Shown: piece by piece, positions 38,106 to 60,625 of the stretch | Numbering within the stretch: position 1 is the stretch's first letter | Layout: every line of letters starts with the position of its first letter | Source of the DNA: Atrina japonica | Taxonomy: Eukaryota > Mollusca > Bivalvia > Pterioida > Pinnidae | Length of the DNA: 64,000 nucleotides | Assembly: GCA_030159075.1 (NCBI GenBank) | Contig: BROG01000079.1 | Location: 466,001-530,000, forward strand | Direction of reading: 5' to 3' | The notes under the pieces: model-generated | The model's database searches: none | Told to the model about the DNA's origin: nothing | Seen by the model: only the letters and a program-made list of their open reading frames with translations | Position numbers and translations under genes: made by a program

Positions 38106-38566
38106 TTATGAGTGGATGAGAGTAATTCTGTTTTATCCATTGTTAACATAAAATTACATTAATTAAGCTTCATTATAGGAATAATACTTGAAAATGAAAA
38201 TATATGTTTTAAACACACCCGAGTTTGTTATCGGGTAAGCTATTAAATCGTCATTATTGTAAATGTCTGGAAAAAAGTTCGCTATTCTGACCACGAAGAG
38301 ATACCATTTTCAAGAATTCTCGAAAATTTTCAACAGTTCTTATTCTCCACAAAAAGAGAATAATTGAAGTGTTTTTATGCTAATTATAATAGCCCCTTTA
38401 TAATGCTTACAAGTTGAGGTATGTTAGCATAACATTTTTTTAAAAGCTAAGATAGTCATCTTTTTACGGTGGTTACTCTTAGACGGATTTGGCTATGCAT
38501 TTAGATTTATTTTTTGGCATTATCTTGTACCACTTTTCCTTTAGAAAACTTTTTTGGAAAATTGGA

Positions 38567-38610
38567 GCTCAACTGATGAAGTCTAATTGACAGAAACGGT
38601 CGTCTTGAGC
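38567..38610 (+). ncRNA. Type I hammerhead ribozyme, copy A (core intact)
   Basis: Helix I 5' strand GCTCAA, then the catalytic core CTGATGA, stem II AGTC with loop TAATT and GACA, then GAAAC, a 3-bp stem III (ACG, loop GT, CGT), cleavage-site C, and helix I 3' strand TTGAGC, perfectly complementary to GCTCAA. Every invariant core position of the hammerhead is present (C3 to A9, G12 A13 A14, A15.1-U16.1, C17). The position 10.1/11.1 pair at the base of stem II is A with A instead of the usual G-C, a family-wide oddity. Predicted cleavage is after the C preceding TTGAGC. Such ribozymes define metazoan retrozymes and the terminal repeats of Penelope-like elements. Confidence 0.75.
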
Positions 38611-38916
38611 ACTTTGACTTTGGTATTATGTTTATAATATTTATAACCACTAGGTCGTTGTCACTGCTGGTGGACCATTTGAGTCCCCGGGGGTATACAT
38701 AAGCCTAGTACCTGGTATTTCGGTACCAGCTGATAATCTTATACTAAAGTAATCTTTGGCACTGATAACACCATTTAAATTCTATTTTTTTTAAATGCTA
38801 AGATAGTCATCTTTTTACGGTGGTTACTCTTAGACGGATTTGGCTATGCATTTAGATTTATTTTGTGGCCTTGTCTTATACCACTTAACCTTTAGAAAAC
38901 CTTTTTGTAAAATTGG

Positions 38917-38930
38917 AGCCCAACTGATGT
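38917..38930 (+). ncRNA. Truncated hammerhead remnant
   Basis: GCCCAACTGATG preserves the start of the motif, after which the sequence jumps to TTAGCATAGCATTTTTT, the body. It marks the unit junction in locus 1. Confidence 0.6.
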
Positions 38931-39073
38931 TAGCATAGCATTTTTTAAAAATCTAAGATATTTATCTTTTTACGGTGGTTACTCTTAGACGGGTTTGGCT
39001 ATGCATTTAGATTTATTTTGTGGCCTTGTCTTATACCACTTAACCTTTAGAAAACTTTTTTTGTAAAATTGGA

Positions 39074-39117
39074 GCTCAACTGATGAAGTCTAATTGACAG
39101 AAACGGTCCTCTTGAGC
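39074..39117 (+). ncRNA. Hammerhead ribozyme, copy B (stem III damaged)
   Basis: Same layout as copy A with perfect helix I (GCTCAA / TTGAGC) and intact CTGATGA and GAAAC. Stem III reads ACG, GT, CCT, so one pair of the three is broken. Activity is probably reduced. Confidence 0.7.
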
Positions 39118-39135
39118 ATTTCAACTTTGGTCTTA

Positions 39136-39762
39136 TTGTTTACTTCCGAGCTAGTTACCACGTCTGCATATTCGTTGTATTTTCGATTTGAAGTTATCAA
39201 CCAATTGTAATAGTTGTACCTGGCAATGAGATTAGGAACTAATTAATTTACCGGACACCTCATGAAATTGAATGTAAGGTATGTTCGCATCCAGTATCAT
39301 ATCACCGTATACATTTTCTAGAAAAATTCTTTTTCCAGAACTACGGATACCGTACCCAAGAATTCCAATCTGCTGTTAATTGCTTTTGTCTAATATATTA
39401 TTAGAATTATTCACAGTTCCAAGCCTCGTACACCTTCTAAGGTCACTAAAAGTTGATGAATGATTAATAACGTGCTTATCAAAATAGTTATGGAGATTAA
39501 ATTCAAGTTGTTACAGAAATTTTAATCACGATATAAATTTTCGTTGGCTAGACAAATTAGTATTCGTGAAAACTTATATAGAACAATCACACATTTATGT
39601 TATTCCATATACGGCCTATACTCTTTCCAACATACTATTTATTTTATTGAAATATCAAAGCACAATGGCACTCGTCTTTCTTCCTGTTGTGTCGGTCAAG
39701 ACCTCAAAACAATCTCATATTTTAGAACTGTTGTTTTTAATAGTGTTTTGTGGATTTGAATA
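39136..39762. other. Spacer, no gene recognised
   Basis: Includes a 71-codon ORF at 39544-39759 with no resemblance. Otherwise AT-rich low-copy sequence. Confidence 0.5.
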
Positions 39763-39998
39763 GCATTCGACGCCACACTGAACATTTTTCCAGTTATCTG
39801 GTGGCTGTCTGTTATTAATGGTGGAGGAAAAAGACCCATTAAGCCAAAAAGAGACCACCGGCCTTCAGCAAGTAAAATGGCAAACTCTCTCACAAAAATC
39901 AGCTTATCTTCTAGCCGGGCTCGTTTCTATGCTGACCAGAAGTGAGATACTTCATAGTTTAAAGCGTGATGCTCTAGCCATTCGTTCACGGAGGACCC
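39763..39998 (-). mobile_element. tRNA-derived SINE, family 1, copy 4
   Basis: Minus-strand copy. The plus strand shows CGACGCCACACTGAAC, GTGGCTGTC, AGAGACCACCGGCC, AAAATCAGCTTATC, CTGACCAGAAGTGAGATAC and GCTCTAGCCATTCG near the tRNA-like end. The GGTTCGA of the B box is decayed. Confidence 0.75.
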
Positions 39999-40403
39999 TG
40001 GCGTTGTGTTTACTTTATTCTTGTTTTCCACCCTGTCTAGCTTATATGGACACGTCATCAACGAGGTTAAATACTTCAAATTTTGTTTAGGCTGATACCG
40101 ACGTGATTTTCTGTTTTATTCACACAATGCAAAACTTATAATTTTCCCACATCAATAATTCATATATACTCAACATATTGATACTAATTATTGCAAAAAG
40201 TGATTGTCATTGATATGCGAATGTGGTAAAGCCCCGTGTAATCTACAACTGTAACATTTCCCAATCGTTGAAATGAAATACGTTAATGTGGGATATTTTA
40301 ACTCATCATCCACTGAAAAACGATGGGTCCTTATGGTAAACAATGACGTAGACCAGTCAAAATGCGTCATAAGGGGTGAAAGAGTTAATATGTATAAAAC
40401 AAG
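39999..40403. other. Spacer, nothing recognised
   Basis: No supported feature. Confidence 0.5.
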
Positions 40404-40405
40404 TA

Positions 40406-40584
40406 CAGTAAAACCTGCTATAGTGGTCACCTCTATATAAGGATCACCTGTCTATAAAGGCCAGTTTTGAAAAGTCCCTTGGCTGCATACTCTAACTAAA
40501 TTGAACCCGTGTATAAGGGCCACCTGCACATAAAGGTCAATATTGCCTGGTCCCTTGGTTGACCCCTATATACAGGTTTTACTG
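40406..40584. mobile_element. Intact pogo/mariner-like MITE, 179 bp
   Basis: Terminal inverted repeats CAGTAAAACCTG and CAGGTTTTACTG are perfect over 12 bp and flanked by TA on both sides (40404-40405 and 40585-40586), the Tc1/mariner/pogo target duplication. The interior has repeated GTCACCT, ATATAAGGATCACC and ATAAAGGCCAG motifs. A second copy at 50271-50440 has lost its outer ends. No ORF; a transposase would act in trans. Confidence 0.8.
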
Positions 40585-40685
40585 TAGTTATTCCTTTTTA
40601 GACGGACTGTGATATTAATGATTCTCACATTCATACTTTCAAAATTGTGTGTATCTGTGGAATACAATTTTACTCCATGGAGTAC

Positions 40686-40687
40686 AT

Positions 40688-40718
<31 letters not shown>
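40686..40718. repeat. (AC)n microsatellite
   Basis: About 33 bp of AC repeat. Confidence 0.95.
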
Positions 40719-40878
40719 AACAGAATCCGACATGCGTTTGCAATCAGATCACATTAATGATACTTGTTTTGGATATTTTCAACATCCTGAAACGGCTTTC
40801 CACATATATCATCTAACATAAAGGGTATCGCAGGATATCCAAGTCTGTTTCAGTGCCACGTGTTTAATGAAATGGTCA

Positions 40879-40937
40879 GTGGTTACAATAATCGCGCAAC
40901 ATTCACTCACCAAATACATCAGATGTATTGTAACCAC
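40879..40937. repeat. Nested inverted repeats
   Basis: GTGGTTACAAT (40879-40889) and its exact reverse complement ATTGTAACCAC (40927-40937) enclose an overlapping palindrome AATACATC, A, GATGTATT (40913-40929). Two alternative hairpins share the right arm. Confidence 0.7.
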
Positions 40938-41399
40938 TTTTTAGCTTACCTGGCAGACAGCAGGTATGGCTGTAATGTAGTGTCATGTTAAAATAGTAAG
41001 TTATTCTATGCTTTGTACGAAAGTCATATCACACTAAAGAATTTGTACGTGTCAGTCTCTAAGTATGGTGTGGCCTAAAACACTATTCAAAACTCAAATT
41101 TATTCACACTTATTATGGGTGTAATATAGTAATTATAGCATTAAGTATTCCTAAAATATTTTGTCGCACTATGGTTGATCATAAGTCAGTATGTCAAAAG
41201 TTGGACGTCACAATATAAATAGTGATTCTCACGTAAGTCTTGTCATGTATGGGTCATGTGTATCTGTTTTCTTTAGATCACCAAGTAATACCAGTCTTTT
41301 CTGATCAGTCAGTATATCATAGTATTATGGACAAACATAGTATATATTTCCCATGCAATCGTTCGCACCTTTCGGCGTATGTAGTATTCAAACTCAATT
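40938..41399. other. Spacer, no gene recognised
   Basis: A 73-codon ORF at 41240-41461 runs into the retrozyme segment and is not a gene. Confidence 0.5.
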
Positions 41400-41404
41400 T
41401 TCGG

Positions 41405-41661
<257 letters not shown>

Positions 41662-41773
41662 CTCCGACTTCCAGACAGAGGACAGAGTACATATCAAGAC
41701 TGTTTCTTTTATACTTTTACCACGTATCACTTCTCAGATACAAAATCTAACTAGTTTACTGATTTTGCACTCC

Positions 41774-41995
41774 CAGGGACCAGTTTCACTAAAGGTGGTA
41801 ACGTAGACGTAGGTAATTCGTAACTTAGTCTTATATGAGTTTCACATACGGTTGTATCTTTCTCCCTACCTATGAAATTACGTCCGAGTCTACTTCTGCC
41901 CCTAAGTCACACGTAACTTCGTGTACGTTAACGTGTATCGTAACTCGAATTGTGTCTAAAGTTACGTTTAGGTTTACGGGTAGAGGTGATCCCTG
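41774..41995. mobile_element. Possible MITE with CAGGGAYCA ends
   Basis: Starts CAGGGACCAGTTTCAC; the reverse complement of the right end reads CAGGGATCACC. The interior is full of ACGTAACTT/GTTACGT motifs, giving strong self-complementarity. No target duplication was confirmed. Confidence 0.4.
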
Positions 41996-42228
41996 TTAAT
42001 CATTTCCTGTATGAGATAATTCGTTTGATCTATCTGATTATAATGTAAGGAAACTCAGATACAGCGTTATTATTCAATCTAAAGGATACATCTTTTGATT
42101 CGATTCGGTCGTGCTTGAAATGTGAAAACTAAAATAGCATTGTTTTATAACATAAGACTGTGGTAAAGTCAAAGTTTTACTAGTGTAAATTCATCAACAG
42201 AAAACTTTCAAGGCACACACCGTTGCGT

Positions 42229-42230
<2 letters not shown>

Positions 42231-42301
<71 letters not shown>
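42231..42301. repeat. (CA)n microsatellite
   Basis: About 70 bp of CA repeat. Confidence 0.97.
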
Positions 42302-42302
<1 letters not shown>

Positions 42303-42495
42303 AACAGGTCCTGATGGAACTATCAATATATAATAGTAAAACATTCCCCATGACTTGAATTGAACATTCTTTAACGCTCGAATGCATGTATTTTAGTAAT
42401 ACTTTTTTCGTCCGATAAACAGCACTTAATATATAAATAACTGACAAAAAGATGGCTAGTTATTAATACTCTTCAGTGGTATCTTATTTCCAATA

Positions 42496-42755
42496 GGGGC
42501 CTCCGTGGCCCAGTGGTCAGAGCATTGCGTTTTGAACCATGAAGACTCTCACTTCCAGTCAGCGCAGGTTCGAGCCCCGCTGGAACCTAGGCTGATTTCT
42601 GTGAGCAAGTCTGCTACTTTATTTACGGAAACCCGGTGGTCTCTTTCCGGGTACATTGTAACCGATTTCTCTCCCCCACCATTAAAAACTAGCCGTCAGC
42701 GTATAACTGGAAAGTTGTTGATTGTGCTGTAAAACACTGTTCAACTTTCAAAATT
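42496..42755 (+). mobile_element. tRNA-derived SINE, family 1, copy 5 (best preserved)
   Basis: GGGGCCTCCGTGGCCCAGTGG, TCAGAGC and a near-perfect B box (GGTTCGAGCCCC) keep the tRNA-like head readable with a long variable arm. Body: CTAGGCTGATTTCTGTGAG, CCCGGTGGTCTCTTTCCGGG, CATTAAAAACTAGCCGTCAG, GTATAACTGG and GTGCTGTAAAACACTGTTC. It reads as the least diverged member and is the natural reference for the family. Confidence 0.85.
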
Positions 42756-44458
42756 CCAAGTTCATTTTCAATATCAGATCACTTTTATGCAATTCAATAT
42801 TTTACGGTTGTTTATTCTATCATTTACCGTTGGAGTCACTGAAATTTTACATATACGCACAATGTTGACAAAGCATTAATCATTCGTATTCTGGATAACA
42901 GAAACATCAATAGCCGTTTTATCACCATGGCTATTTTCACCATCCATCTCCTTGTAGCCCCATCAAAGATTAATAAATATGCGATATACCCATCAATTAC
43001 CCGCATTATAGATATTGGCTAATTACAAACGGACATCGAACATTGTGAATCAGTTCGGATTATATAGCCACGTAATCGCCCAAACACGTGCATTTCATGC
43101 CATGAACGTGTATTCCATGTTTTTATAACGTGACCAGCAGTGCTTGAATACAAAAGCCCTAAGTAACATATTGAAATTATATTTTGTCTTGGAGCGTTTG
43201 ATTTGAAAATGCATATAATTGTTAAACAATGACCGGGGTAATTTCCTTTTAAACATGGTTAAATTTGAATGTGCCATGTCTCCTTTTCACTGTATGAAAC
43301 TGATCGACACAAAATTAAACCTGATAAGGGTTGCAATTTGCACGTGTGACGGAGAGAAACATGTACAGGATCAATGGGTTTAAATTAGTTTTATTGAAAT
43401 CCTTGAACAAAATATTTTACAAGCAATTGATATTAGAACTTAGCAGATTAACGTTTGGAAACACAAACCCGGCTTATGTAAACATTAGACTCAAAACATT
43501 TCGTTGTAAATCCATGATCTGGGGACACGATATATTACCAGGTGCAAAATAAATAGACTACAATAGCTAATGTCAATCTTCCCGGTCACCTGTAATAAAA
43601 GGGTTCCTTCGATCCGATTCGCCACGTCGATGGGATGACAAAAGGGTTGATCCGTAAGGATCAAACGCTCAGATAATTCCGACGGTCTCGCAGTGAAACC
43701 CTATGAACGGCATGCGACTGTGATCCCATGGTTTAAATAATTCTTAGTCATATTACAAGCTGTTTGTAACACATACATCCGTGCGTAAACGTCTGCAATC
43801 TTTCGATGTCGTATCTCGAAAGAATAAAAAAATAACTGAAATGATTTTGTAGTGAGAAACGAAATGATGAATTTTTCTCTTCACAGGATAGAAATGCGTT
43901 GAACGAACATTGTTACAATATAGTTTTCAATGGACGTTCTACGGGTTGAAAGATTACTACGGGTCAAATAACATTTGTTATTCCTGTACAAATCTAACAC
44001 CAGTTATTGTCCCAGAGATTACAATTAATCCCAAAGTCAATTTGCCCGTAACCAATCTCGGGTAAACTGAGGATAGATATATGTCCAAAGCCTTGTCCAA
44101 TTAAAGAAAAAGCGAGTGCACACTCCGCAGGGGAGACGACGTTGGAATAGTGTTCGACAAATTGCGATAACCTCAAATGTCAACCTTCAGTACTAACGGG
44201 AAAACGTGGAATTTGATTAAACAAGCATTCAGGATACACCCTTACACGAGATAAAGATGAAAAACGTATTTTTAAAAGCCAAATGCGTCAGTTTTATAAA
44301 TGACCGCGACTTCAATTATAAAACACTGCATTCGTATGTCAGTGTTATACTGAAGTTGAAGATTAAACAATAGTGGAGGCTAATTTGCATTCTGTCAGTC
44401 ATTGATTGAAAATTAATTATCTTGAGACATGTTTGTTACGGTCAAGGTAACTTAGAAG
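42756..44458. other. Low-copy interval, no gene recognised
   Basis: ORFs of 60-73 codons (43095-43277 minus, 43331-43552 plus, 43994-44176 minus) show no domain. No repeat was matched elsewhere. Confidence 0.5.
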
Positions 44459-44494
<36 letters not shown>

Positions 44495-44565
44495 GGATGG
44501 ATGGATGGATAGATAGATAGCTGGGTGGATGAATATGTGGAAGAATGGAAGGATGGATGGATACA
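44459..44565. repeat. (GATA)n/(GATG)n microsatellite
   Basis: GATA repeat to about 44,490, GGAT units, GATA again, then degenerate GGATGGATG to about 44,561. Confidence 0.95.
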
Positions 44566-44689
44566 GTAGCAATAGTTACATAACTGACATTTCAATGAAA
44601 GTCATTATTAAGAAAGAGATCATTAATGATAAATTCAAATATATGATTACGGATTCATACCGGTATGGGATATGTCGACGGGCACTAGG

Positions 44690-44795
44690 CCTCCATGATA
44701 CCTCATCACACCTCAAGATATTTGGAGGTCCTTGTTTGTGCAATATTCACCCTTTTTGTATACTGATTGTTGTGAATTTTCGTAGACGTCCTTAC
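44690..44795 (+). repeat. Dispersed repeat (family R-C), diverged fragment
   Basis: CTCCATGATACCTCATC, GGAGGTCCTTGTTTGTGC, AATATTCACC and TTGTATACTGATTG parallel the CTCCATGACACCTGA, AGAGGTCCGTGTTTGTCC and AATATTCACC of 27755-27895. Confidence 0.5.
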
Positions 44796-45738
44796 GGCTA
44801 ACAAAATGTTATCTGTAGTATTTACATCAAAACTTTAATCATTCTTGTACATTATTTTTTCTTGCATGTTTCACAGCAATTAAGAGTATATAGGTTTCAA
44901 ACAAATGGCGTCCAAAATTGGGAAGGACCAGGATTTTCACTCCTTTTGCTGGTCAAGTATATTGCCTTAGGATTTTGTAAGTAGATATGTAATCTTGTAT
45001 AATGTTTATAAGAGACCAAAGCAGACAACAGGAAGAATTGTTATAAAACATGCAAATATAAAGCATTAGATCCTTTAGAAAAAGTTCCTGAAATGCATTT
45101 TGTTAATGATATTATGTTGTACATACACGAGCGATGGCGTATCGCTTTCATTATTCGACACAAATTATGTAATTAATGGTACTTCTCCATCTCATGCTGG
45201 GTTAGTAGCATGACTATTAAATCCCAGCAGATTTTCTAGTTTATCTTTCAAATGTAACCGTGGCAAACAAAAGGATTAGCATCTCTATAAACAAATATTC
45301 CTTAGTCTGTCTGTTGGCGCAATATAAAATTCAATGTAATTTCAAACATTTATTATTTAGCAATTAATTTAAGTTTCATATAATTTTAGCTAATCAGTTG
45401 CTACAGTTTTGCATAAAACTGATAAATTATTAATAACATCTAACGAGTGTTCTTCAGTATAATGCAGAAATAAGCAATTTTTTCAAATGCCCAACAAAAT
45501 GGGTTAAAAGTGTTGTTGACTATTTCAAATCTTATTCTTTAGAGAGAACGGTATATACAGTTATTCATGATGATATACATATATGCAAATAAAAAGTTCA
45601 TTCATATTTAAATTAATATTTCATCGAACCATTAATATTTAAATATATGTATATATTGATGATACATGATGTTGGGAATGAATGCAACACATGTATGCTA
45701 AATAATGTGGTATTCAATTAAAATCCATTGTTAGAATG

Positions 45739-45746
<8 letters not shown>
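44796..45746. other. Spacer, nothing recognised
   Basis: AT-rich, no supported feature. Confidence 0.5.

Positions 45747-45829
<83 letters not shown>
45747..45829. repeat. Compound (CA)n and (AT)n microsatellite
   Basis: CA repeat to about 45,781, then AAACAG, then AT repeat to about 45,829. Confidence 0.96.
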
Positions 45830-45831
<2 letters not shown>

Positions 45832-46379
45832 AAGAAAAATAAAAAAAGCAACACGTGTTTACAAAAACGCAAGCGCTTTCAGGCGTTTGGTTTATATAGC
45901 TAACAACTGTAGTTACTATTAATTATTATGTATTTATTATATATACATGTATGTGTTCTTATGTAGAAGAAACACAATCAGATTTGTTCATCGATTTATA
46001 ATTTTATACTAGTTTGCTGTGCATTACAAAATTACAACAAAGTGCAGCAAAGTCACTAAATGATGAATAATTTCCACTTATGATTGTTTATTTTGCAATA
46101 GAATTATCATCCATCCTGTTTGGTCCTGATATCGATTTATATAAGTTTAAGTGGCAAACATTTACACAGATTTAGGTTTTTATTTAGTTCATGTTTTTGT
46201 ATGTTTTTCCAACAGTATATGTGTTACATAGACAGCATATTTGATATAAACTGCAGATAAGTATCTCTATGAGCTACAAAGATATTCACTTTGGTTAGAT
46301 TCAGTCATATAATTAATTTTCTCAACCTAACTAATCCATATTTGAAAAATATATAGCAATTGATAAATACTGGACAATA
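45830..46379. other. Spacer, nothing recognised
   Basis: AT-rich, no supported feature. Confidence 0.5.
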
Positions 46380-46384
46380 ACCAT

Positions 46385-46700
46385 TTAAATACATAAATCT
46401 AGTAACTGGTATGTCGGTACTAGCTTATTATCTTATACTAAAGTAATAGTTCGAACTAGTCACACCATTTAAATTCTAAATTCTTCGAAAGATAAGATAG
46501 TAATCTTTTTACAGTGGTTACTTTTAGACGGATTTGGTTATGCATATAAATTTTTATTATTTGGTCTTGTATGATACCACTTTCCCTTCAGAAAATCCTT
46601 TTAGAAAATTTTAAATTGTAGCTGAACTGACGAAGTCTGATTGACAGAAACGATGTCTTGAACATTATAACTTTGGTATTATATTCATAATATTTATTTT
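46385..46700 (+). mobile_element. Retrozyme-like repeat, locus 3, single near-complete unit
   Basis: Starts in the body at AAATCTAGTAACTGGTATGTC, passes the hairpin region (diverged here), TATACTAAAGTAAT, CACACCATTTAAATTCTAAA, TTTTTACAGTGGTTAC and TATGATACCACTTTCC, and ends after the hammerhead in ACTTTGGTATTATATTCATA. It is more diverged than locus 1. Confidence 0.7.
46621..46663 (+). ncRNA. Hammerhead ribozyme, copy C (degenerate)
   Basis: GCTGAA, CTGACGA (variable position 7 changed), AGTC, TGATT, GACA, GAAAC, then GATGTC with one base lost from stem III, and TTGAAC. Helix I retains only part of its pairing. Probably inactive or weak. Confidence 0.55.
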
Positions 46701-47887: not shown

Positions 47888-47924
47888 AATTACACTGACT
47901 AGAGTAATCGTTCCTACTTGTCAC
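47888..47924 (+). repeat. 37-bp direct repeat, copy 1
   Basis: AATTACACTGACTAGAGTAA followed by TCGTTCCTACTTGTCAC is identical to 49755-49791. Flanks differ on both sides. Confidence 0.85.
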
Positions 47925-48357
47925 CAAACATAAGAGAGTATCCAGTGAGGAATAAAACGTCTTTCCCCGTGCAGCATGTCATAACCGAAAAGTGAGTAGA
48001 ATCATTCGTATGATAATCGAAAGGTTACTCCACCCCGCCATCTTATGTGAATCGGACAATACCTCCATTAAAGATGGAAACGCGGATATATATATATATC
48101 GCGGATTCCTTTAGAGGACAGACAGAAAATAAAATGTCAGTTTTCAGATTTCTATCTTTATTAGGGTTACTTGTTCATTATATAAAATGATGGATACTGT
48201 AATTATTTTCAGTATTTGTGTTATTCCAAAATGTCCAAATGGACGTAACAATTGCTTACCTGCATTATATCTGATCAATATATCATTAACATGTGACCGG
48301 TTAGAAATCAAAAGTAGTTTTCTTTGTTGGTGTAAATTTGTAGGGGTGCACATTGAT

Positions 48358-48500
48358 CCATTATTATTATTATTATCATAAGACTGTTTCTCAAATACTT
48401 CTAGCTTTTTTATAACTAATATCATCATCATTATTATCATTATTGTTGTTATTGTTATTATTATTGTTGTTGTTACTGTTGTTGTTTTTGTTGTTGTTTT
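48358..48500. repeat. (ATT)n / (GTT)n trinucleotide-rich stretch
   Basis: TTATTATTATTATTA at 48,361, then ATCATCATCATTATTATC and GTTGTTATTGTTATTATTG to about 48,497. The 192-codon minus ORF across 48144-48722 is composed of this and the GT tract and is not a gene. Confidence 0.9.
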
Positions 48501-49791: not shown

Positions 49792-50104
49792 TTGCATATT
49801 AAATTTATCTATTACGAAACTCCCGATCAAATTTACAATTAAACGACTATTTATTGATCATTTGATTGGCACATTATACGTCTGTTTTCGATTCATTAGT
49901 CGGGAAGTACATTACATGTACTTGGCGAGGCGCTCGACAAATACAAAGAAAGTATTTGGTCTTTCACGCCAAGATATGAATCTGAAGCTCGTGTCAGGAG
50001 GAGTGATAAGATAGAGAGGACACATTGTAATGTTGTGAAACTATACAAAGGCAATTCATAGCTTGGCGTACAACAAGATGAAAAATACGCGTATGAAATA
50101 TCAT
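49792..50104. other. Spacer, nothing recognised
   Basis: No supported feature. Confidence 0.5.
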
Positions 50105-50150
50105 ATATATAATACCAAAGTTATAGTTTAAAATACGGGCAAACACAAAT

Positions 50151-50188
50151 GCTCAAGACGATCGTTTCTGTCAATTCGACAGTTGAGC
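50151..50188 (-). ncRNA. Hammerhead ribozyme, copy F (core deleted)
   Basis: Helix I and GAAAC are preserved, but 6 nt (GATGAA on the minus strand) are missing from the CTGATGA core. Catalytically dead. Confidence 0.65.
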
Positions 50189-50193
50189 TCTAA

Positions 50194-50195
<2 letters not shown>

Positions 50196-50270
<75 letters not shown>
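50196..50270. repeat. (TA)n microsatellite inside retrozyme locus 4
   Basis: Begins directly after the unit sequence TCTAATTTAA, where intact units read AATTTAAAATGTATGTG, so it expanded from or inserted at that point. Confidence 0.95.
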
Positions 50271-50274
<4 letters not shown>

Positions 50275-50440
50275 CCTGCTATAGCGGTCACCTTTATATA
50301 ACGATTACCTATTTATAAGGGCCAGTTTTTTCAAGTCCCTTGACTGCATACTTCAACTAAATTAAACCTGTGTATAAGGGTCACCTGCAAATAAAGGTCA
50401 ATATTTTCTGGTCCCTTGGGTGGCCCCTATATATTATAAA
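50271..50440. mobile_element. Pogo/mariner-like MITE, second copy, ends eroded
   Basis: AAAACCTGCTATAGCGGTCAC, AAGGGCCAG, AAGTCCCTTGACTGCATAC, GTGTATAAGGGTCACCTGCA and GGTCCCTTGG match 40406-40584 throughout. The outer CAGT of each inverted repeat is replaced by (TA)n or AT-rich sequence. Confidence 0.75.
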
Positions 50441-50459
50441 ATAATACCAAAGTTATAAT

Positions 50460-50496
50460 GCTGAAGACGGTCGTTTCTGTCAATTAGACAGTTGAG
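50460..50496 (-). ncRNA. Hammerhead ribozyme, copy G (core deleted)
   Basis: Carries the same 6-nt core deletion as copy F, plus changes in helix I (GCTGAA on plus). Catalytically dead. Confidence 0.65.
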
Positions 50497-50502
50497 TTCC
50501 AA

Positions 50503-50504
<2 letters not shown>

Positions 50505-50571
<67 letters not shown>
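50505..50571. repeat. (AT)n microsatellite inside retrozyme locus 4
   Basis: Starts after CCAATTTAA, the same unit position as the tract at 50196-50270. Confidence 0.95.
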
Positions 50572-50575
<4 letters not shown>

Positions 50576-50596
50576 ACATAATACCAAAGTTATAAT

Positions 50597-50640
50597 GATC
50601 AAAACGATCGTTTCTGTAAATTAGACTTCATCAGATGAGC
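50597..50640 (-). ncRNA. Hammerhead ribozyme, copy H (core intact, helix I and cleavage site altered)
   Basis: Minus strand: GCTCAT, CTGATGA, AGTC, TAATT, TACA, GAAAC, ACG/CGT, T, TTGATC. The core is complete, but helix I has mismatches, stem II lost a pair, and the cleavage-site base is T instead of C. Activity is doubtful. Confidence 0.6.
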
Positions 50641-50843
50641 TCCAATTTAAAATGTATGTGTATTTTCTAAACAGAAAGTGGTATCAAGCAAGGCCAAATA
50701 ATAAATCTAAAAAGTATATAACCGAAATCCGTGTAAAAGGATTACTATCTTAGCTTTATACCCTCGGGGATTCAAACGGTCCACCAACAGTGTCAACGAC
50801 CTAGTGGTTATAAATATTATAAGAATAATACCAAAGTTATAAT

Positions 50844-50887
50844 ACTCAAGACGATCGTTTCTGTCAATTAGACTGCATCAGATGAAC
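50844..50887 (-). ncRNA. Hammerhead ribozyme, copy I (A9 changed)
   Basis: Minus strand has CTGATGC in place of CTGATGA, intact GAAAC, stem III and C, with partial helix I (GTTCAT against TTGAGT). Probably inactive. Confidence 0.6.
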
Positions 50888-51136
50888 TCAAATTTCAAAA
50901 GTATGTGTATTTTCTAAACAGAAAGTGGTATCATACAAGGCCAAATAATAAATGTAAAAAGTATATAACCGAAAGCCGTCTAAGAGTAACCACCGTAAAA
51001 AGATCAGTGCCAAATATAACATTAGTATCAGATTTTCAGCTGGTACCGAAATACCAGGTACTAGGTTTATATATACCCTCGAGGACTCAAACGGTCCACT
51101 AGCAGTGGCATCGACCTAGTGGTTATAAATATATAA

Positions 51137-51210
<74 letters not shown>

Positions 51211-51228
51211 ATATATATATATATATAT
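51137..51228. repeat. (AT)n microsatellite
   Basis: AT run with one GTGT interruption between retrozyme locus 4 and the hAT-like element. Confidence 0.95.
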
Positions 51229-51760
<532 letters not shown>

Positions 51761-52668
51761 AATGGACCAAAATAAATACGAAGACGGTTTTTTTTTGGGG
51801 GGGAGGGGGCAAATAACAAATAATATTATGTGACAAGTAGTGCTATGTGCAACATTTCGGACAGTCTTTTGACTAAACTCAGTTTTAGAGGCGGTTTATT
51901 GCGTAATGCATTTGAACAAAAATAAATACTACAGGGTTAATCGTTCTGAGAGATATCCAGGGGGATTATTTGAGAATTGCAAACTATAATTTAATACCTT
52001 GTTCAAATTTCGTGAAATTTATATCATTATCATTTAAGTCATTTAGTCCTTCATATGATAAATCCTTGAAATTTTATTAGATAACGCCACCATTCGTCTA
52101 ACGCAAATGTTGCATATAGCGGGTACATCACATTTCTTGACAAAGTCACCGTTCCTTAACAGGATTACCTACCGTACTGTAGATGGCGTCTCACTGTTTT
52201 GTATAGACATATAGACAGTGATGAGAAACCATGATAGAGAACAACTATCATAATAACTAAGGTTATACCATGTGATGTTCTAAACACAGCAATGCAAAGT
52301 GTCTCGTTGAACACTATGCCCTCGTAGTTTTACTTTCGGGTCACATTGCTTCCCAAAACAAAACTATGAGACCATAGTATCCAAGTTAATATGCATTATT
52401 AGGTGAGGGGAATGTCTACGTCATTTACAGTGAATAATTATTTTAGATCCTGTTGACCGAATATAATGCAAATAAAATATTTTGTTACACAATCAATAAA
52501 ATGTCAACTAGAAAAATAACCATTTGACCACTTTTTGGCTCGGGTTTAAAAATTACATAGTGAAATAGGGGTCACGTGTTACAAATATGCCGATGAAACA
52601 GAATTGTAAATGTTTTATCATTATAACCAATCTATTGTTTTCATTAGAAATAGAAGAGGTAGTAGTAA

Positions 52669-52670
<2 letters not shown>
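51761..52670. other. Spacer, no gene recognised
   Basis: Includes a T8/G-rich stretch (about 51,787-51,810, TTTTTTTTGGGGGGGAGGGGG). No supported gene. Confidence 0.5.
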
Positions 52671-52710
<40 letters not shown>

Positions 52711-52731
52711 GTGATGATAATTGTGATAATG

Positions 52732-52807
<76 letters not shown>
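52671..52807. repeat. (GAT)n microsatellite, about 137 bp
   Basis: GATGAT repeats with GGTGAT, AATTGTGATAAT and GGTGAT interruptions. The Asp-rich ORF (52587-52832) is an artefact of the repeat. Confidence 0.96.
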
Positions 52808-52808
<1 letters not shown>

Positions 52809-53734
52809 ATTAGTATACTGAAATGTATTTAACCTCTCCACAGTTAGAATCTAGAACAGTTGCAGTTGAAACCTTGAAAAAAGAGCAAGTAAGCAAACTG
52901 GATTTGCAGACAGCTTGTTTTTTCACTGAAGCGTAATTAATACAAGATAATCTCATATAGTGGTTGCTTGTGATATCAAGAATACAACATTTCCTTTTTA
53001 CTTTTTCTTGTGCATTTCACAAATTGCCCACCCATGTCTCATACTTAATACTTAAATGGGTATGGATCAAACCAGTGACATATTTATGCAAGATGCATTA
53101 AAATAAATCACAGAGTAAAGAATGAAATGAAATGTTGTGTTAGGTTAAAGATGTATTATGAGCAACACCTCAGTTTGTTAAGCCCCACAAAAGTGGTGAT
53201 CAAACATTTGCACGCGACGTGTTAAACAACCAATCAAAAGCGCATTTATAACCATATCTAATTGATAATTTGTGAGGAATTTGGAAGTTGTCCATATACA
53301 TTTTGCACTTCTGGTGCAAGAAAAACGTAACATGCAAACACCTTAAGATCATATTTCTAAAAGAAACATTCATAAATACTTAAGCGATTTTAGAACATTT
53401 TATTTAATGAACTTGAAAGCGGTCTGTACAAAACAAGAAACATTTTATTTCTGTATTTTCACGGAGAAATTTAAACAAAGACGTTTGGTAATGGTATTTG
53501 TCGAGGTGTTTACAAGCAAGCACTTACTAAAGTGTAAAATTTAACACGTAGAAGCACACCATGGTCAATTCATGTCACAATCGAGTGAAACAATACACAC
53601 AAAAGATAATTTAGATACATTACATGGTAACAAAGGTATAATATGGACAGAAAAATAAATAAACAAGGGAAGAATCCTGCACATATTGTCTCAGAATGTT
53701 GTTTCAAGTATAACAAAGAAGTACTAATGGATAT
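52808..53734. other. Spacer, nothing recognised
   Basis: No supported feature. Confidence 0.5.
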
Positions 53735-53870
53735 TCGAAACTCCAAGTCCATTAGAATACGACGAATTAGATATTAAAACGGTCTCAACACGTAGAACAA
53801 TTCCTAATCCCAAACGGGGCAGGACCAGGTGTCCTGAACGAGTCAGCGTCCCCTGATAGCATGCCACGCC
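53735..53870 (+). repeat. Dispersed repeat (family R-B), copy 2
   Basis: TTCGAAACTCCAAGTCCATT, AATTAGATATTAAAACGGTC, AACAATTCCTAATCCCAAAC and GGACCAGGTGTCCTGAAC match 13876-14010; it continues into GTCAGCGTCCCCTG, like family R-C. Confidence 0.6.
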
Positions 53871-55100
53871 CGTCGAAAATGTTCCATGGAAATATCTCGA
53901 TTTCAGTGAAAAGGTCAAGCTCGGTTAGAAGGTTATCAATCGGATTCAGATATATTTGGCGAAAAAAGTCACAGTATATTGTCGTGATTCGGAATACTCG
54001 CAGAAGCTTCTGTACGGTTTTTGCCCTATTTTGTCATTGTATAAAATACAGAATATTTCTTACAAAATGATAATGCAATAATGAAACTTCTATAAAAAGA
54101 AATTCTAGGGACCTCCTGGAAAAGTTCGAAACATCATTACTTCGACTCATGCATGGTAACCGAGAATCATATAGTGTTTAGTTTCAGAAGTTCTTTGTGG
54201 TATATTTGATTGCTTCAAAACATATAAGACATTTACGGTCATAAAATTTGATAATAAATGCTAAAATGAACTTAATTTTCGTGAAATTTAAATATTGTGA
54301 TTTTCCAAGGAGTGGAATTGTCATAGGGCGATTTCGTACACATGTAAATATTGAATTCGATTTATTTGTAATTATCTATGTTTCATAGAAATGGATCACA
54401 TAAATTATTCGAAACATCGAGAAATTCGACTCATTGAAGTTCGACTGACCAAAGTTCTACTGTATATCATTTCTACTTTTCTTATAATTTTTCGTCGTAC
54501 ACAAAATATCAATTCAAATGATACTACGAAGCGATATCATAACAAACTAAATAATATCATACAGAATGATGATATCGTACATTTCTTTCTGTAATAAGCG
54601 AAATCACTTTCAATTATCATCGGGAAATCTGTGTTCTAGATAGCTGGTCCTCATATCTCTACGTCAAAACTATCAACAGTGTACAAGACCAGTCCCCACA
54701 CCCCCTTGGTCTGCTGTAATTAAAGTTTCCCCCTTGGTCAAAGTACATAAAACCAGTACCACATCTAACCTGCACCACACACAATACTCCTAATATGACC
54801 CTACATTCAGCGGATTAGTACCGCTCCCTTAAATAAGCTTTAAGCTCCCAAAATACCTTTCAAAGTAACACAAAATACATTAACACCTAAATAATGTTAA
54901 TGTTGGGCATATGCACATAATTCTGTTTACCTCTTATAGGTACTCAGAGGTGCGAGCATGGACAACTCCACGTTAAACACTTCGGTTATATCATTCGGTT
55001 AATGCACTTCTTCTATCATATTGGCATTTCTCTATAAATAAATATCTTACTTAGACTGTCCGTCAAAAATTAGGTGGCCGTAAATCCTCTAAATTCAAAA
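53871..55100. other. Spacer, no gene recognised
   Basis: ORFs of 64-69 codons without resemblance. The part 54,640-54,850 is C-rich (CAGTCCCCACACCCCC, GTTTCCCCCTTGG) and could be another old repeat; no partner copy was seen. Confidence 0.45.
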
Positions 55101-55104
55101 TTCT

Positions 55105-55462
55105 ATAGCCGTTGTGACTTAGCAGCTGTGCCTCACTACCCACCTCGGACCCGGGGTCTCCACATGCATCGGACCAGAGCCACAAGACACAGAGGAGTCG
55201 GTCGATGATTTACCAGAAGGCCCCTCCCATCCGGGAGCCGAGGGCCGACCAACCCAGGGAGAAGAGGACACTTAACCGGCCAACGCCACTACCAGATCCT
55301 CAGCTCAAGTCTATTCCGTAGGGGCGAGCACGTGTAACAAATTCCATCATGGTTGCACGTTAAACACAAGGAGCCTCTCCGGAGCTACAGTGGTAGCACC
55401 GGCGTGTGGCAAGGGCTTTGAGTAGTCACGCCGCACGTTAAATCAACTCCGATTGATTGATT
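55105..55462 (+). mobile_element. Dispersed element R-D, uninterrupted copy
   Basis: GC-rich against its surroundings: CACCTCGGACCCGGGGTCTC, CCATCCGGGAGCCGAGGGCC, CTTAACCGGCCAACGCC, GGGGCGAGCACGTGTAAC, CACCGGCGTGTGGC and AGTCACGCCGCACG. Its 3' end TTAAATCAACTCCGATTGATTG has a simple-tail look. It lacks the minisatellite that splits the 15.1-16.1 kb copy. No ORF; probably a non-autonomous retroelement. Confidence 0.6.
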
Positions 55463-55824
<362 letters not shown>

Positions 55825-56054
55825 TTTAATTGTTGGCTTGTTGACAACTTGACAAAAGAACAAAGATGAACAGATAAATAAACATCGAAAATAATATCAA
55901 AGTGTAATTTTATGAAATATATTATTTCTGTTTTTTATAATTTTGTGGTCGTTGATGATTTATTTTATTCTAATAGCTGTAGAAAATAAGGGATTAAAAG
56001 TGAAGGCATGTAACATGTTACAGACATTTCATTTGTATCTAATGATATTATGTT

Positions 56055-56600
56055 TTCCACACAACAGCATGGTGACAAAAGTCTTTCCTTTTTCCATCAG
56101 TTTTTTCTTTGTTTTATATAAAACCAACAATTTTTTAATGTTTATAAAATCATAAAATCTGAACAGAATTTCACAAATTTTTATAGAATTATAGTTAATT
56201 CGATTCATATTTATAGAATCCATACATCATAAATTTACTTGATATATTTATGGGAATACTTAGGTTTTAGCCACAGAGAAAGTTTTAAAATCCTTATTTG
56301 TTCTTTAAGTGTATTTAAGTCATCTCTGATGTAATATAATTTTTTCTCTCATAAAATCATTGTATATTCTAAATATGCAGGGTAGTTATATATATTTTAG
56401 AATAGATTCAAAATATGAATTTGATTTGCCACAGATAGAAATGTTTTAATTTAGTTTCCACTTAAATTTGTGGAATATATCAACATTTAATTGTTGGTTT
56501 TATATAAAACAAAGATGAAAATGGTAGAATAAGGAAAAACTTTTGTCATCATGCTGTTTTGTAACTGACAGCGTCACCATGCTGTTTTGTAACTGACAGC
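56055..56600. mobile_element. Foldback element with long imperfect inverted arms
   Basis: The left arm (AACAGCATGGTGACAAAAGT, TTTGTTTTATATAAAACCAA) is the inverted copy of the right arm (TTGGTTTTATATAAAACAAA, ACTTTTGTCATCATGCTGTT). The arms are at least 75 bp and may extend inward (CATATTTATAGAATC against GATTCAAAATATG). The right arm tip is tandemly duplicated: CCATGCTGTTTTGTAACTGA and CAGCGT occur twice at about 56,551-56,602. The 70-codon ORF here is a chance frame. Confidence 0.6.
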
Positions 56601-56885
56601 GTGCTATTTGACATATGATTTTCCTACTCACAGAGAGCAAAATGAAAAAGTATCGAGATCATTTATATTTTTAATGTTACTGCTATAACGAATATAAATG
56701 TATTTTCAAAACCTTGGATAGGTATATTATTCCTGTTTTATATTATACAAATTAATATAAACTATTAATTTCATAAGTGTCAGGTATTGAGAAATACTGC
56801 TGTATGTATGGTAGACCAAAATCCTACTAATTTATCTATGTAACAATTCAATTTACATGTAAATATATATTCATGTTTTGCATGG

Positions 56886-57213
56886 ATTTAAAGGAGCATA
56901 AGCTGCGTTTTTGTTTTTCGATTTTTTTTCTTTTTTTTTTTGAATTTTTTTTTTTTTATTTATTTATTTTTTTTTTACTTCTTATATTGACATTTTAAAA
57001 ATTCTTAGATTCCTATATAGTTTGTGGACATTGCTTGCAAAACCCATGTTTGACATTTGATTAACTGAACCTTACTATATGTATATAAACAACACACTGG
57101 AACTGACCGCATTTTCACAAAATATGTAGGACTATAAGATTTTTGTATGCCTGCTTATGGCTCTTATCTGTTTTTGTACAGTAGTAAAAGCCGAAAAAAT
57201 CGATATATAAATA

Positions 57214-57312
<99 letters not shown>

Positions 57313-57780
57313 GATATAAAGTCAGAAATAGTGTCGTACGTATGCATATGCAAATTAGTAACTTAAAGGTCAAATTAATCATTTCCAAACGAATATTTGC
57401 CAAACTTGGTTTCTCTTGCACTTTTCTCTAAATATGAAAAAAAAAAACAATTTTATGCCTGTGTATATCTCTTTTTTGTATATCAGTCTAGGTAGTAAAA
57501 ATATGCTCATGCCCCTGTAATGTTTATGAATTTATCATTAAATATTAATGTCATTTGTCTTACATATCTCCAATAATTTGTCACTGATATGGAGATATTA
57601 CCAGCTTCAGATGCAGGGCCACAAATATTGACTTGTAAAATGGACTCGTGACAATGCAGTGAGGGCTATCGAATGCCTCACTTCTGTCGTGACAAGGGAT
57701 CTCCCTTGTTAGTATCATCCGAATTACTTATGCCAATATATTTATATATATTTTTTGGTAAAAACAGCTAATGAACTTTT
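56886..57780 (+). mobile_element. MITE-like composite element with poly-T, (TA)n and an R-A module
   Basis: Left end TTTAAAGGAGCATAAGCTGC, and the reverse complement of the right end reads AAAAGTTCATTAGCTGTTTT, so both match the GGGCATTAGCTG-type terminus. Inside are a T-rich stretch (56,919-56,985), a (TA)n tract (57219-57306), the segment 57301-57734 shared in inverted form with 37521-37946, and within that an R-A module. This is the most complete member of its family in the window. Confidence 0.6.
57219..57306. repeat. (AT)n microsatellite inside the MITE-like element
   Basis: About 88 bp of AT repeat, positionally equivalent to 37943-38015. Confidence 0.95.
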
Positions 57781-58024
57781 GATATTTTCATGCCATTCCA
57801 AAAATACAAAAAAATTACATAGAGAAATAGCATATTTATAGTCTTTACCAATCTAATTCTAATTCAGTTCTGAAATTAACTTTCCTTATACTAGATACGT
57901 TTTGCTCTATTCCCGTTTGTACGTTTCAAAATTGGAAATCTACTACCAATTTTACAATTCCCGAAAACCTCCTAATGTTGCTTTTTAATCTAGTCTTTTT
58001 TTACCGAAAGCTATAGCTAGTTAT

Positions 58025-58290
58025 ACCATCGTACTTCGTGTCATAAACATGATGCCAAAGTTATAGTTTTGCAAAAAAGACAAAATAAATGCTCAAGACG
58101 ATCGTTTCTGTGAATATGATTTCATCCTACAGTTGAGCTCGAGTCAAAAATATGTGTAGAGTTAAAAAAAAACAGAAAGTAGTATCATACAAGGTCAATT
58201 AATAATAATAGATGTATAAGAGAATCCGTTTAAGAGTAACAGCCTTGAAAAGATGGTCATCTTAGCTTTTGAGGAATTTAGAATTTTAAG
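58025..58290 (-). mobile_element. Retrozyme-like repeat, locus 6, partial
   Basis: Plus strand: GATGCCAAAGTTATAGTTTT, then the hammerhead, AAACAGAAAGTAGTATCATA, CAAGGTCAATTAATAATA, CGTTTAAGAGTAACAGCC and ATGGTCATCTTAGCTTTTGA. The rest of the unit is missing. Confidence 0.65.
58091..58138 (-). ncRNA. Hammerhead ribozyme, copy J (insertion in core)
   Basis: Perfect helix I (GCTCAA / TTGAGC), GAAAC and stem III, but four extra bases split the core (CTG, TAGG, ATGA) and stem II is altered. Inactive. Confidence 0.6.
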
Positions 58291-58545
58291 TATATAAGCT
58301 ATGCAAAACCCATGCAAACAATTGTCATGTTATTGACTACTCGATTATTTATTTTGTTTGAAGTCAATTAGGTTATATTCGATTCATTGACATCAGTTTA
58401 TGCTTAAATACAAATTTAACTCTTTGCCTAACAATTAAGATAATTAAATCATATGATACTGTCTTCGATTAATTTTTTTTATTACTATTATTCGTCTGTA
58501 TCATTTGTGACGGAAATTTATTCCTCACTTATTTCATTTGAATTC
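58291..58545. other. Spacer, nothing recognised
   Basis: No supported feature. Confidence 0.5.
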
Positions 58546-58715
58546 GATTGTGGACTCACGGCAGGTGCAACCGGTCAACTGGGGATGTTTACTCCTCCAT
58601 GGCACCTGATCCAACCTCTGGAATTCCAGAGGTCCGTGTTTGTCCAAAATTCACCAGATTTGTATAGTGTATCCTTGACAACCTGAATATTAATACTTTG
58701 GTATCAGTGATTGTT
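58546..58715 (+). repeat. Dispersed repeat (family R-C), good copy
   Basis: GTGGACTCACGGCAGGTGCA, CCGGTCAACTGGGGATG, TCCTCCATGGCACCTGATCC, AGAGGTCCGTGTTTGTCC, TTTGTATAGTGTATCC and CTTTGGTATCAGTGATT. Same orientation as 27364-27530. Confidence 0.7.
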
Positions 58716-59429
58716 TATGTCTAGGGCGGTGTTACTATGAAACTTATATCTGTGTAGTTGTCAATCAAATGCACCTTGTCGTATACTTAATTAAATAATA
58801 AAAGTAAGCATTTATTATTTCTTAACTTTTTCATAAAAATAACCCTTTCTGTGGTACTTTTTCCATTACACTTCAATCTAGTGTGAAGTGTTGAGGAACA
58901 TATTTATTATATACTTTATTTTTTTTTTTCTTTTGCTCAGAAATTAGCCTCTAAAATGTGTCAATGTAAAATAATTCCTTCAGTGCTAATTGCATCAAAT
59001 TGTCTGCCGAATGTATGTATGCTTTGATATAATTTATTGAGGTATTATATTGTTAGTGATATTAGATTATGTATTTTAAGGCTAAAACAATTTTAGTGGT
59101 GTTGAAATTAGATACAATTCATAATTGAACAGGAACCTTTTATATATCACAGCACATTTTTTATTATCATTACAATATTTCACTTTAAGACGTTGTCTAC
59201 CCATTATACAACGTACACTGACTCATAAAAGCCATCATATAAATAAGATGGAAACTAATTTCACATAACTTTATTTTATACTTTATTGCTTCAAAGAAAC
59301 AATATTTCAGAAAAAAAATTCAACCGATGCATTTTATCAAGAGAGGGAATAAAAGGTTGAGCTAATATGCCACAAATCTGAAATGTGTTACGAATATATA
59401 CCATTGCAATCTGACAAAACGCGTGAATT
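58716..59429. other. Spacer, nothing recognised
   Basis: AT-rich, no supported feature. Confidence 0.5.
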
Positions 59430-59655
59430 GCATTCCCTATGCGAGCGTGGACGAGTGATATGAGCACAGCGCTATACCTCTAGTCAACGCTGGTTTTAGA
59501 CTCGATAGAACCTAATTGTTTGGTATGATAGCTTTCTTGTGGAACACCAATGCACTCTTTATTGGTACATTGTAACCAGGTTCTCTCCCCACCATTAAAT
59601 AACCACATAGCTTAACATTGTTGAGTGTGACGTAAGCACATTTAAACGAAGAAAC
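59430..59655 (+). mobile_element. tRNA-derived SINE, family 1, copy 6 (degraded)
   Basis: ATGCGAGCGTGGACGAGTG, GAGCACAGCGCTATACCTCT, a lost B box (GGTTTTAGACTCG), TTGTGGAACACC, GTACATTGTAACC, TTCTCTCCCCACCATTAAAT and TTGTTGAGTGTGACGTAAGC follow the family order. Confidence 0.65.
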
Positions 59656-59904
59656 AAAATCAAAAGTCGAGAACTAGGCAAATATATTTCAATGATATGG
59701 AAAAGTCTACGTCGAACCCCATTTCGAATCGAACTGCCAATTGCTAGGCGAATGTCTTTCCATGAGACAATCCTAATCAGGTCATGTTAATAAATGTAGA
59801 ACTGATATTTTTTTCCGTTAATGTAAAACTTTAAAAGCAACTGGTAAACACTGCAATTAGAATATCAATATTTATACAGTATACCTCCATTATGCCGATG
59901 CGAA

Positions 59905-60255
59905 ATATCATGGCTATAGTTAAAGTTTAACAACAGAGTCCACAACAAATGTTCAAGACGATCGTTTCTGTCAATAAGACTTTATCAGTTGAGCTCCAAT
60001 TTAATATATAGATATTTTTCCGAAGGAAAAGGTGGTATCATACAAGGTCAAATTATTAATTTAAATATGTTGCTAAATCCGTCTACCCACTGTAAAATGT
60101 ATATCGTAACCTTTGAGAAGTTTAGAATTTGAATGGTTGTATCTTAGCGAATTATTTCTTTAGTATAAAACAATCGGCTGGTACCGAAATGTCAGGTGCT
60201 GGGTTTATGTATACCCTCGGGGACTCAGGCGGTCTACCTACAGTGGCAAAGACAC
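59905..60255 (-). mobile_element. Retrozyme-like repeat, locus 7, nearly complete single unit
   Basis: Plus strand: AATGTTCAAGACGATCG, then AAGGTGGTATCATACAAGG, TTTAGTATAAAACAATCGG, CTGGTACCGAAATGTCAGG, TATACCCTCGGGGACTCAGG and GGTCTACCTACAGTGGCAAA. About 350 bp, matching full unit length. Confidence 0.7.
59951..59994 (-). ncRNA. Hammerhead ribozyme, copy K (G8 changed)
   Basis: Minus strand: GCTCAA, CTGATAA, AGTC, TTATT, GACA, GAAAC, ACG/CGT, C, TTGAAC. G8, a catalytic base, is replaced by A, so cleavage should be abolished; one helix I pair is also lost. Confidence 0.65.
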
Positions 60256-60434
60256 AAACGTTGAAACAAAATTAACATGAAATCTTTTGTAACGGTACCT
60301 ATTTCATCAAAGTCAATTTTATCTTCCTAAATTGTACATCGTTTAAAGCAACATTCCGTGGAGTAATGTTTAGAAATCAACTTTGCTGTACACACTTAAT
60401 GTTTATTCGCATTCTCATCTATACCAGTTCAAGA

Positions 60435-60625
60435 ATTTTTTACAGTGGTAAAATTTGGATTTGACTATACATTTGGATATATTTTTTGCCTTGTATGATA
60501 CCACTTTCTCTTTAGAAAATACACATATATTTTAGATTGAAGCTCAGTTGATGAAGTCTAATTGACAGAAAGATCGTCTTGAGCATTATAACTTTGGTAT
60601 CATGTTTATGATATTTAACTAATTG
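60435..60625 (+). mobile_element. Retrozyme-like repeat, locus 8, partial
   Basis: ATTTTTTACAGTGGTAA, GACTATACATTTGGATAT, TTGTATGATACCACTTTCTC, the hammerhead, then ACTTTGGTATCATGTTTATG. Opposite orientation to locus 7, about 180 bp away. Confidence 0.7.
60542..60584 (+). ncRNA. Hammerhead ribozyme, copy D (C3 changed)
   Basis: GCTCAG, TTGATGA, AGTC, TAATT, GACA, GAAAG, ATCGTC, TTGAGC. C3 is replaced by T and stem III has lost a base. Probably inactive. Confidence 0.6.

Follow-up and report, generated by a model that had tools for sequence, protein, structure and literature searches.

What are the hammerhead-bearing repeats that lie dispersed over a stretch of the genome of the bivalve Atrina japonica, and from what kind of RNA have they been copied? 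The stretch, hereafter the window, comprises the 64,000 nucleotides (nt) at positions 466001-530000 of contig BROG01000079.1, within an assembly of 832 Mb. An earlier reading of its letters (the original prediction) had described a repeat of about 350 bp at eight loci on both strands and had called it retrozyme-like; comparing the window with one of these repeats, copy A, we recovered the family at every place named, that is, at 38.4, 41.4, 46.4, 50.1-51.1, 51.5, 58.0, 59.9 and 60.4 kb. The sequences display a unit with its hammerhead motif, a fixed 3′ end and scattered 5′ ends, copies of several turns, likeness between neighbouring units and extra conservation of the ribozyme. Under one joint reading, which includes a proposed mode of copying through a circle and an internal start, we are highly confident that they represent a metazoan retrozyme family of the kind without long terminal repeats (non-LTR).

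The unit and the fixed 3′ end of its insertions

Counted from the predicted cleavage site, which follows base 38604, the unit forms a ring of 351 bases with a guanine-plus-cytosine (GC) content of 0.34-0.36. As had been claimed, it lacks an open reading frame (ORF), no stop-to-stop frame in the doubled ring exceeding 56 amino acids (aa). The one composite ring tested folds, as a circle, to −84.6 kcal/mol (z −3.1), and none of 200 shuffles folded as low. The size of the unit, its low GC content, the missing ORF, one type I hammerhead per turn, the dispersed insertions and the self-pairing of the ring support the label of retrozyme-like.

Insertion ends were studied in two samples from the assembly. 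A DNA search with window positions 38567-38930 gave 4805 first-look candidates, 40 of them scored, with 113 matches; the 39 scored places outside the window became 38 loci (sample S1) once one with duplicate flanks had been removed. Sample S2 holds 38 loci, covering 39 non-window places from a search with copy B, and retains two with common flanks. The ends of these 76 loci were located by BLAST on a wrapped ring and by a unit profile of 354 positions, which is blind to extensions shorter than about 30 nt past its own end; the wrapped ring has no such edge.

By the profile, the 3′ end lies at model position 348-353 of 354 in 69 of the 76 loci (33/38 in S1, 36/38 in S2), while BLAST places it at ring positions 31-46 in 68 (33/38 and 35/38). 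Similarly, 35 of the 39 S1 loci have, after the last hammerhead, a tail that stops at ring 33-45. The usual end reads GGTATTATGTTTATAATATTTA, a hairpin of six pairs, followed by a few bases. If a linear monomer released by cleavage were copied from its 3′ end, the insertions should stop at the cut. By BLAST, not one of the 76 loci ends within 5 nt of the ribozyme cut, so that the junction of the template was seemingly either uncut or re-joined, with copying begun inside it. The 3′ ends of S2 are sharply clustered (Rayleigh p 7e-16) and its 5′ ends scattered (p 0.74 by BLAST, 0.19 by the profile); for the 5′ ends of S1, where the query favours insertions of more than one turn, the test gave p 0.0016 by BLAST and 0.013 by the profile. 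According to the profile, the insertions of the 76 loci are 114-1206 bp long, or about 0.3 to 3.4 turns.

Two apparent patterns at the 5′ side were rejected. Seven BLAST 5′ ends of S2 at ring 306-307 are probably artefacts of subfamily differences, as the profile starts of these loci differ, and the shortest BLAST length, 0.24 turn, belongs to the same group. Nor is run-off at a cut 5′ end shown: five of the 38 S2 starts lie at ring 4-14, with about 1.5 expected under uniformity, and none lies at 1.

The flanks carry few other marks. Over 66 loci, the mean longest word shared by the two sides of an insertion, as for a target-site duplication, was 5.33, against 5.00 in mismatched pairs, and words of at least 8 were shared in 3/66 loci, against 2.8% of mismatched pairs; no clear excess over controls was found at seven window places and in 33 loci. 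We saw no poly(A) in the sampled retrozyme 3′ flanks.

Hammerhead motif and likeness of units

In copy B the motif reads GCUCAA-CUGAUGA-A-GUC-UAAUU-GAC-A-GAAAC-GAUC-GUC and then, past the predicted cut, UUGAGC; stem III of the retrozyme has two or three pairs with the palindromic ACGAUCGU. Two of the 11 segments in the window are intact, namely A1 (38567..38610, plus strand; predicted cleavage after C at 38604) and B (41434..41477, minus strand). The other nine are broken: A2 (39074..39117, plus) has CUC for GUC and is damaged; C (46621-46663, plus) has a weak helix I and has lost one stem III base; D1 and D2c miss six core bases; D2a has core substitutions and D2b a weak helix I; F carries an insertion; and G and H have the core substitutions G8 to A and C3 to U, respectively. 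A strict descriptor (CUGANGA, three stem II pairs, GAA, A...U closing stem III and at least 5 helix I pairs), written after the motif had been seen and tolerant of a mismatch at the stem II base, matches the window at 38573 on the plus and 41471 on the minus strand; when the last 52 kb were shuffled 300 times with dinucleotides preserved, the two strands together gave 2 matches.

A search with covariance models, which the original prediction had proposed as a check, gave a divided answer. The whole window yielded 0 Rfam matches at gathering scores, and 23.5 kb of it no hammerhead at E<=10. Scans of 101-base stretches did find Hammerhead_1, at 23.0 bits (E 7.6e-4) for A1 and 24.6 bits (E 2.3e-4) for B, both below its gathering score of 34. 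At E<=1, no hammerhead was listed on 9.9 kb holding four intact copies, and none on 14.3 kb with the minimal hammerheads of Penelope-like elements; since long scans thus miss known intact short hammerheads, the absence of a hit is an insensitive test of the family.

Across the samples, at least one motif is intact by rule in 54 of the 76 loci, half of which were found through likeness to the hammerhead, and 9 of the 76 hold two intact hammerheads one unit apart. Segments of fixed spacing that kept to a mismatch limit numbered 90 in 58 loci, 20 of which had been picked for hammerhead likeness; 51 of these segments are intact by rule. Exact-pattern scans of viral contig and genome contig collections returned no matches.

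Sample S1, whose selection did not rest on the ribozyme alone, shows conservation of 95.1% over the 44-nt hammerhead and of 92.3% over the body. No body window of 44 nt reaches the hammerhead value, the highest standing at 94.8% (p 3e-7 in a paired test on 63 units). That the unit has no other stretch of this length so well conserved argues for selection acting on the ribozyme of source copies. Within an array, the likeness of a unit to its neighbour ranks higher, at 47 of 50 loci, than the median for units elsewhere (Wilcoxon p 9e-10); in a smaller within-array comparison (S1 and the window), a unit's own partner came out on top in 14 of 45 cases. This likeness would fit one circle copied repeatedly. 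Loci L044 and L088 are a single array (L088 5973-7284, reverse strand) in which four intact hammerheads stand exactly 350 bp apart and neighbouring units are 95-100% identical, a young or recently duplicated locus.

Copies and other features of the window

The family forms eight clusters in the window, where 11 segments and one fragment of the hammerhead were counted; seven clusters carry a segment, as the original prediction had it, and that at 51.5 kb does not. Copy A (38418..39142, plus) consists of a 5′-truncated unit, nearly one full turn and a rearranged third unit, with an internal tandem duplication of 155 bp. Downstream of its hammerhead A1 lies the hairpin TATTAT-GTTT-ATAATA (38624..38639, plus), a few bases beyond which most sampled insertions stop. 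Copy H (60437..60617, plus), 5′-truncated with the usual 3′ end, has TATCAT/ATGATA here, so that, by reading and in this copy only, the pairing is kept through a two-sided change. Copy C (46389..46697, plus) is also 5′-truncated and has the usual end, as do D1 and D2c, and, approximately, F and G. Copy B (41417..41512, minus) is a short 5′-truncated insertion. Copies F (58040..58308, minus), with a broken hammerhead, and G (59903..60278, minus), near one full turn, have 3′ ends placed by eye. Some 23 extra nt separate hammerhead and tail hairpin in D1, F and perhaps G, and such copies possibly form a second subfamily.

In the 50-kb cluster, copy D1 (50093..50196, minus) has its 3′ end placed by eye and an (AT)n tract upstream, and copy D2 (50428..51143, minus) comprises segments D2a, D2b and D2c, none of the three intact, with (AT)n separating D2b from D2c. 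Copy E (51481..51725, minus), devoid of a hammerhead, runs into (AT)n. Tracts of (AT)n at 50198, 50507, 51124 and 51372 divide E, D2a-b, D2c and D1. What had been described as a tandem of four hammerheads at 50 kb turns out to be four broken ones, amid (AT)n and another repeat; the 50.1-51.7 kb cluster would rather represent several insertions in or around an (AT)n tract, later split. The other repeat, of 158 bp (50271-50428), adjoins (AT)n within the cluster, shows internal similarity and has a second copy, 86.7% identical, at 40410-40567. A 144-bp stretch between two (AT)n tracts (51229-51372) has loosely inverted ends, CAGGGTTTTAAC and TTAGAGTTGTCAAA; it is possibly a small DNA transposon, and a second full copy was not found within the window.

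The suggestion that low divergence between copies betrays recent activity was not borne out in the window, where pairwise identity among copies is 61-90% (whole aligned lengths, pairs of more than 80 columns). The sub-units of copy A are 88-90% alike over their whole lengths and 93-94% over the best 144 bases, and copy A finds better matches, of up to 95% identity, elsewhere in the assembly.

Apart from the family, the left end of the window (1-11564) is filled by a 36-bp satellite in some 318 copies, for which a period of 108 was scored as well, and 15308-15827 is a 33-bp tandem repeat of 15.8 copies containing CCCCCGGG stretches. A 114-aa frame (24853-25197, minus) resembles, mostly over short parts, 27 proteins of metagenome-type contigs (best E 3e-14), and is perhaps a dispersed repeat.

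Template, rival explanations and known systems

That 69 of the 76 loci share one fixed end past the cut indicates that an RNA cut at that ribozyme was not the template. Reverse transcription seems instead to start internally, on an RNA uncut at that point, which would be either a circle or an uncleaved multimer. Judging from these sequences, we propose that transcripts of at least one unit would be cut by the type I hammerhead into RNAs of about 351 nt, and that these would be closed into circles, by analogy with published mussel and axolotl work. A borrowed reverse transcriptase would start some 38-45 nt downstream of the cut, just past the small AU-rich hairpin, and would copy around the ring over anything between about a third of a turn and several turns; integration of the complementary DNA would leave no detectable target-site duplication. 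What we infer in this account is that the ribozyme is active, that a circle serves as template and that the target primes the copying, together with the choice of reverse transcriptase. In its most specific form, the proposal is rolling reverse transcription of a ribozyme-made circle, always from the stem-loop about 40 nt past the junction, by a start of Penelope-like type that is supplied in trans and directed to other targets; the hairpin tail would be the recognition signal missing from published work. We put this forward tentatively, at somewhat less than even confidence. The fixed end itself points to the hairpin tail of about 40 nt as the likely recognition site, and both template and tail are open to the existing assays of Penelope-like enzymes.

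Several observations count against this scenario. Seven (profile) or eight (BLAST: L013, L016, L017, L019, L030, L066, L071 and L085) of the 76 loci end elsewhere. So do window copies A, which stops about 10 nt before the usual place, and B, whose tail has no clear hairpin and an ill-defined 3′ end. The conservation of the tail is not clearly above that of the body, 24% of body windows being as high. Position 10.1-11.1 of helix II is an A.A mismatch in 86 of the 90 segments, and the best predicted fold of the A1 44-mer, at −10.3 kcal/mol, is not the hammerhead (−5.3); taken together, these suggest that a lone motif may cleave poorly. A dimer is likely by the parallel of the axolotl motif Amex2, which cleaves much better as a dimeric construct (PMC7229834). 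As a double hammerhead, B lies less than 1 kcal/mol above its best dimer (−25.4 vs −26.2), and A1 5 kcal/mol above its own (−21.2 vs −26.2). Finally, the likeness of neighbouring units would equally follow from an uncleaved transcript spanning an array already uniform, or from local duplication.

The last point leads to the strongest competing explanation, in which a source array yields a multimeric transcript that serves as template uncleaved, and insertion does not depend on the ribozyme cut. We regard it as a real possibility, if a somewhat doubtful one. The inserts do span the cut site, uniform source arrays would give alike neighbouring units, and insertion of the anole Penelope-like element was indifferent, in vitro, to catalytic mutants of its ribozyme (PMC11167929). 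A ribozyme that is the best conserved part of the unit nevertheless suggests that its activity matters, as do the intact motifs in 54 of the 76 loci, with their stated bias. A further point against this rival is the abundance of retrozyme circles in mussel (PMC7229834).

Much less probable is that the repeats belong to Penelope-like elements as their pseudo-LTRs and are not independent, an idea to which we give very little credence. It would sit well with the type I hammerhead, with the tandem copies and with a start of copying located immediately 3′ of the ribozyme, and such elements are resident in the same genome: a typed probe for their reverse transcriptase gave 147 matches among 150 scored candidates, and a resident element has a 739-aa frame with RVT_1 and GIY-YIG. 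Their hammerheads, however, are of the minimal type, in which most of helix III is missing (GAAAGCGC), and lie in sequence unrelated to the retrozyme, whose 351-nt units abut one another directly and encode neither domain. Among 15 minimal hammerheads of one exact pattern, taken from 20 Penelope-like loci (L089-L108), 14 are followed within 220 nt by (AT)n, compared with about 10% of window stretches of that length that hold such a tract; the tract begins 43-58 nt past the motif in seven, 72-97 nt in six and 3 nt in one. By contrast, (AT)n follows the retrozyme 3′ end within 60 nt in 0 of 76 loci; it precedes the start within 60 nt in 2 of 76, against 2 of 296 stretches further off. Unlike the sampled loci, several retrozyme pieces of the window adjoin (AT)n, and to that extent favour the pseudo-LTR idea. 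The two classes of (AT)n distance at Penelope-like ends recall a published optional tail. Equally improbable is an ordinary satellite or short interspersed nuclear element (SINE) with a decorative hammerhead-like stretch. The nine broken segments and the empty Rfam result at gathering score agree with it; the two intact motifs, weighed against the rate in shuffles, the better conservation of the motif in the family, the dispersal with differing flanks and the fixed 3′ end do not. ARAGORN, which is poorly suited to detecting diverged heads, reported no tRNA for the window.

Although the unit is not a Penelope-like element, we infer from the insertion ends that its internal start probably works like that of one. 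With the purified anole element, reverse transcription begins within a stem-loop 3′ of the hammerhead, at a site that shares no homology with the target and at which genomic copies terminate (PMC11167929). Both systems share tandem copies and, as it seems, an end set by an internal start in a stem-loop tens of nt 3′ of the cut. They differ in that Penelope-like elements encode reverse transcriptase and GIY-YIG and have a minimal hammerhead, with residents abutting (AT)n. As the target preference of the retrozyme is unlike theirs, likeness does not fix its reverse transcriptase partner, and a review from the laboratory behind the mussel work states that no conserved motif points to one (PMC7761336). 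The word AAUAUUUAU, common to retrozyme and Penelope-like ends, is AT-rich and was noticed post hoc; we mention it as a lead only and made no use of it. Among titles and abstract openings on animal retrozyme insertion, a literature largely outside subscription journals, fixed ends appeared only in the Penelope-like paper.

As to retrozymes proper, the published account (PMC7229834) supplies the following comparisons. The plant LTR retrozymes it cites are alike in being non-autonomous, with a hammerhead and circular RNA, and differ in their type III hammerhead, LTRs, length of 600-800 nt and 4-bp duplications. Target-site duplications of published metazoan retrozymes are, when present, longer than 4 bp, whereas the ends examined here gave no clear excess of shared words; for the mussel retrozyme, the portion seen makes no mention of a fixed internal 3′ end, a comparison by description. 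The A.A at the base of helix II in 86 of 90 segments is a further difference, Amex2 having U.U there. Again by description, axolotl and newt retrozymes and satellite 2 resemble our family in units of about 330-350 bp, a short stem III with a palindromic loop, a mismatch at the helix II base in one family and likely action as dimers. Metazoan non-LTR retrozymes, with units of ~150-450 bp that occur as dimers to multimers, have been described from mussel, coral and axolotl, and those of such size are already in print for mussel (Cervera and de la Pena 2020): the Mytilus galloprovincialis retrozyme shares with ours the type I hammerhead, repeats of about 350-390 bp, low GC content, lack of an ORF, a range from monomers to multimers, a self-paired ring and a genome that also houses Penelope-like elements (PMC7229834).

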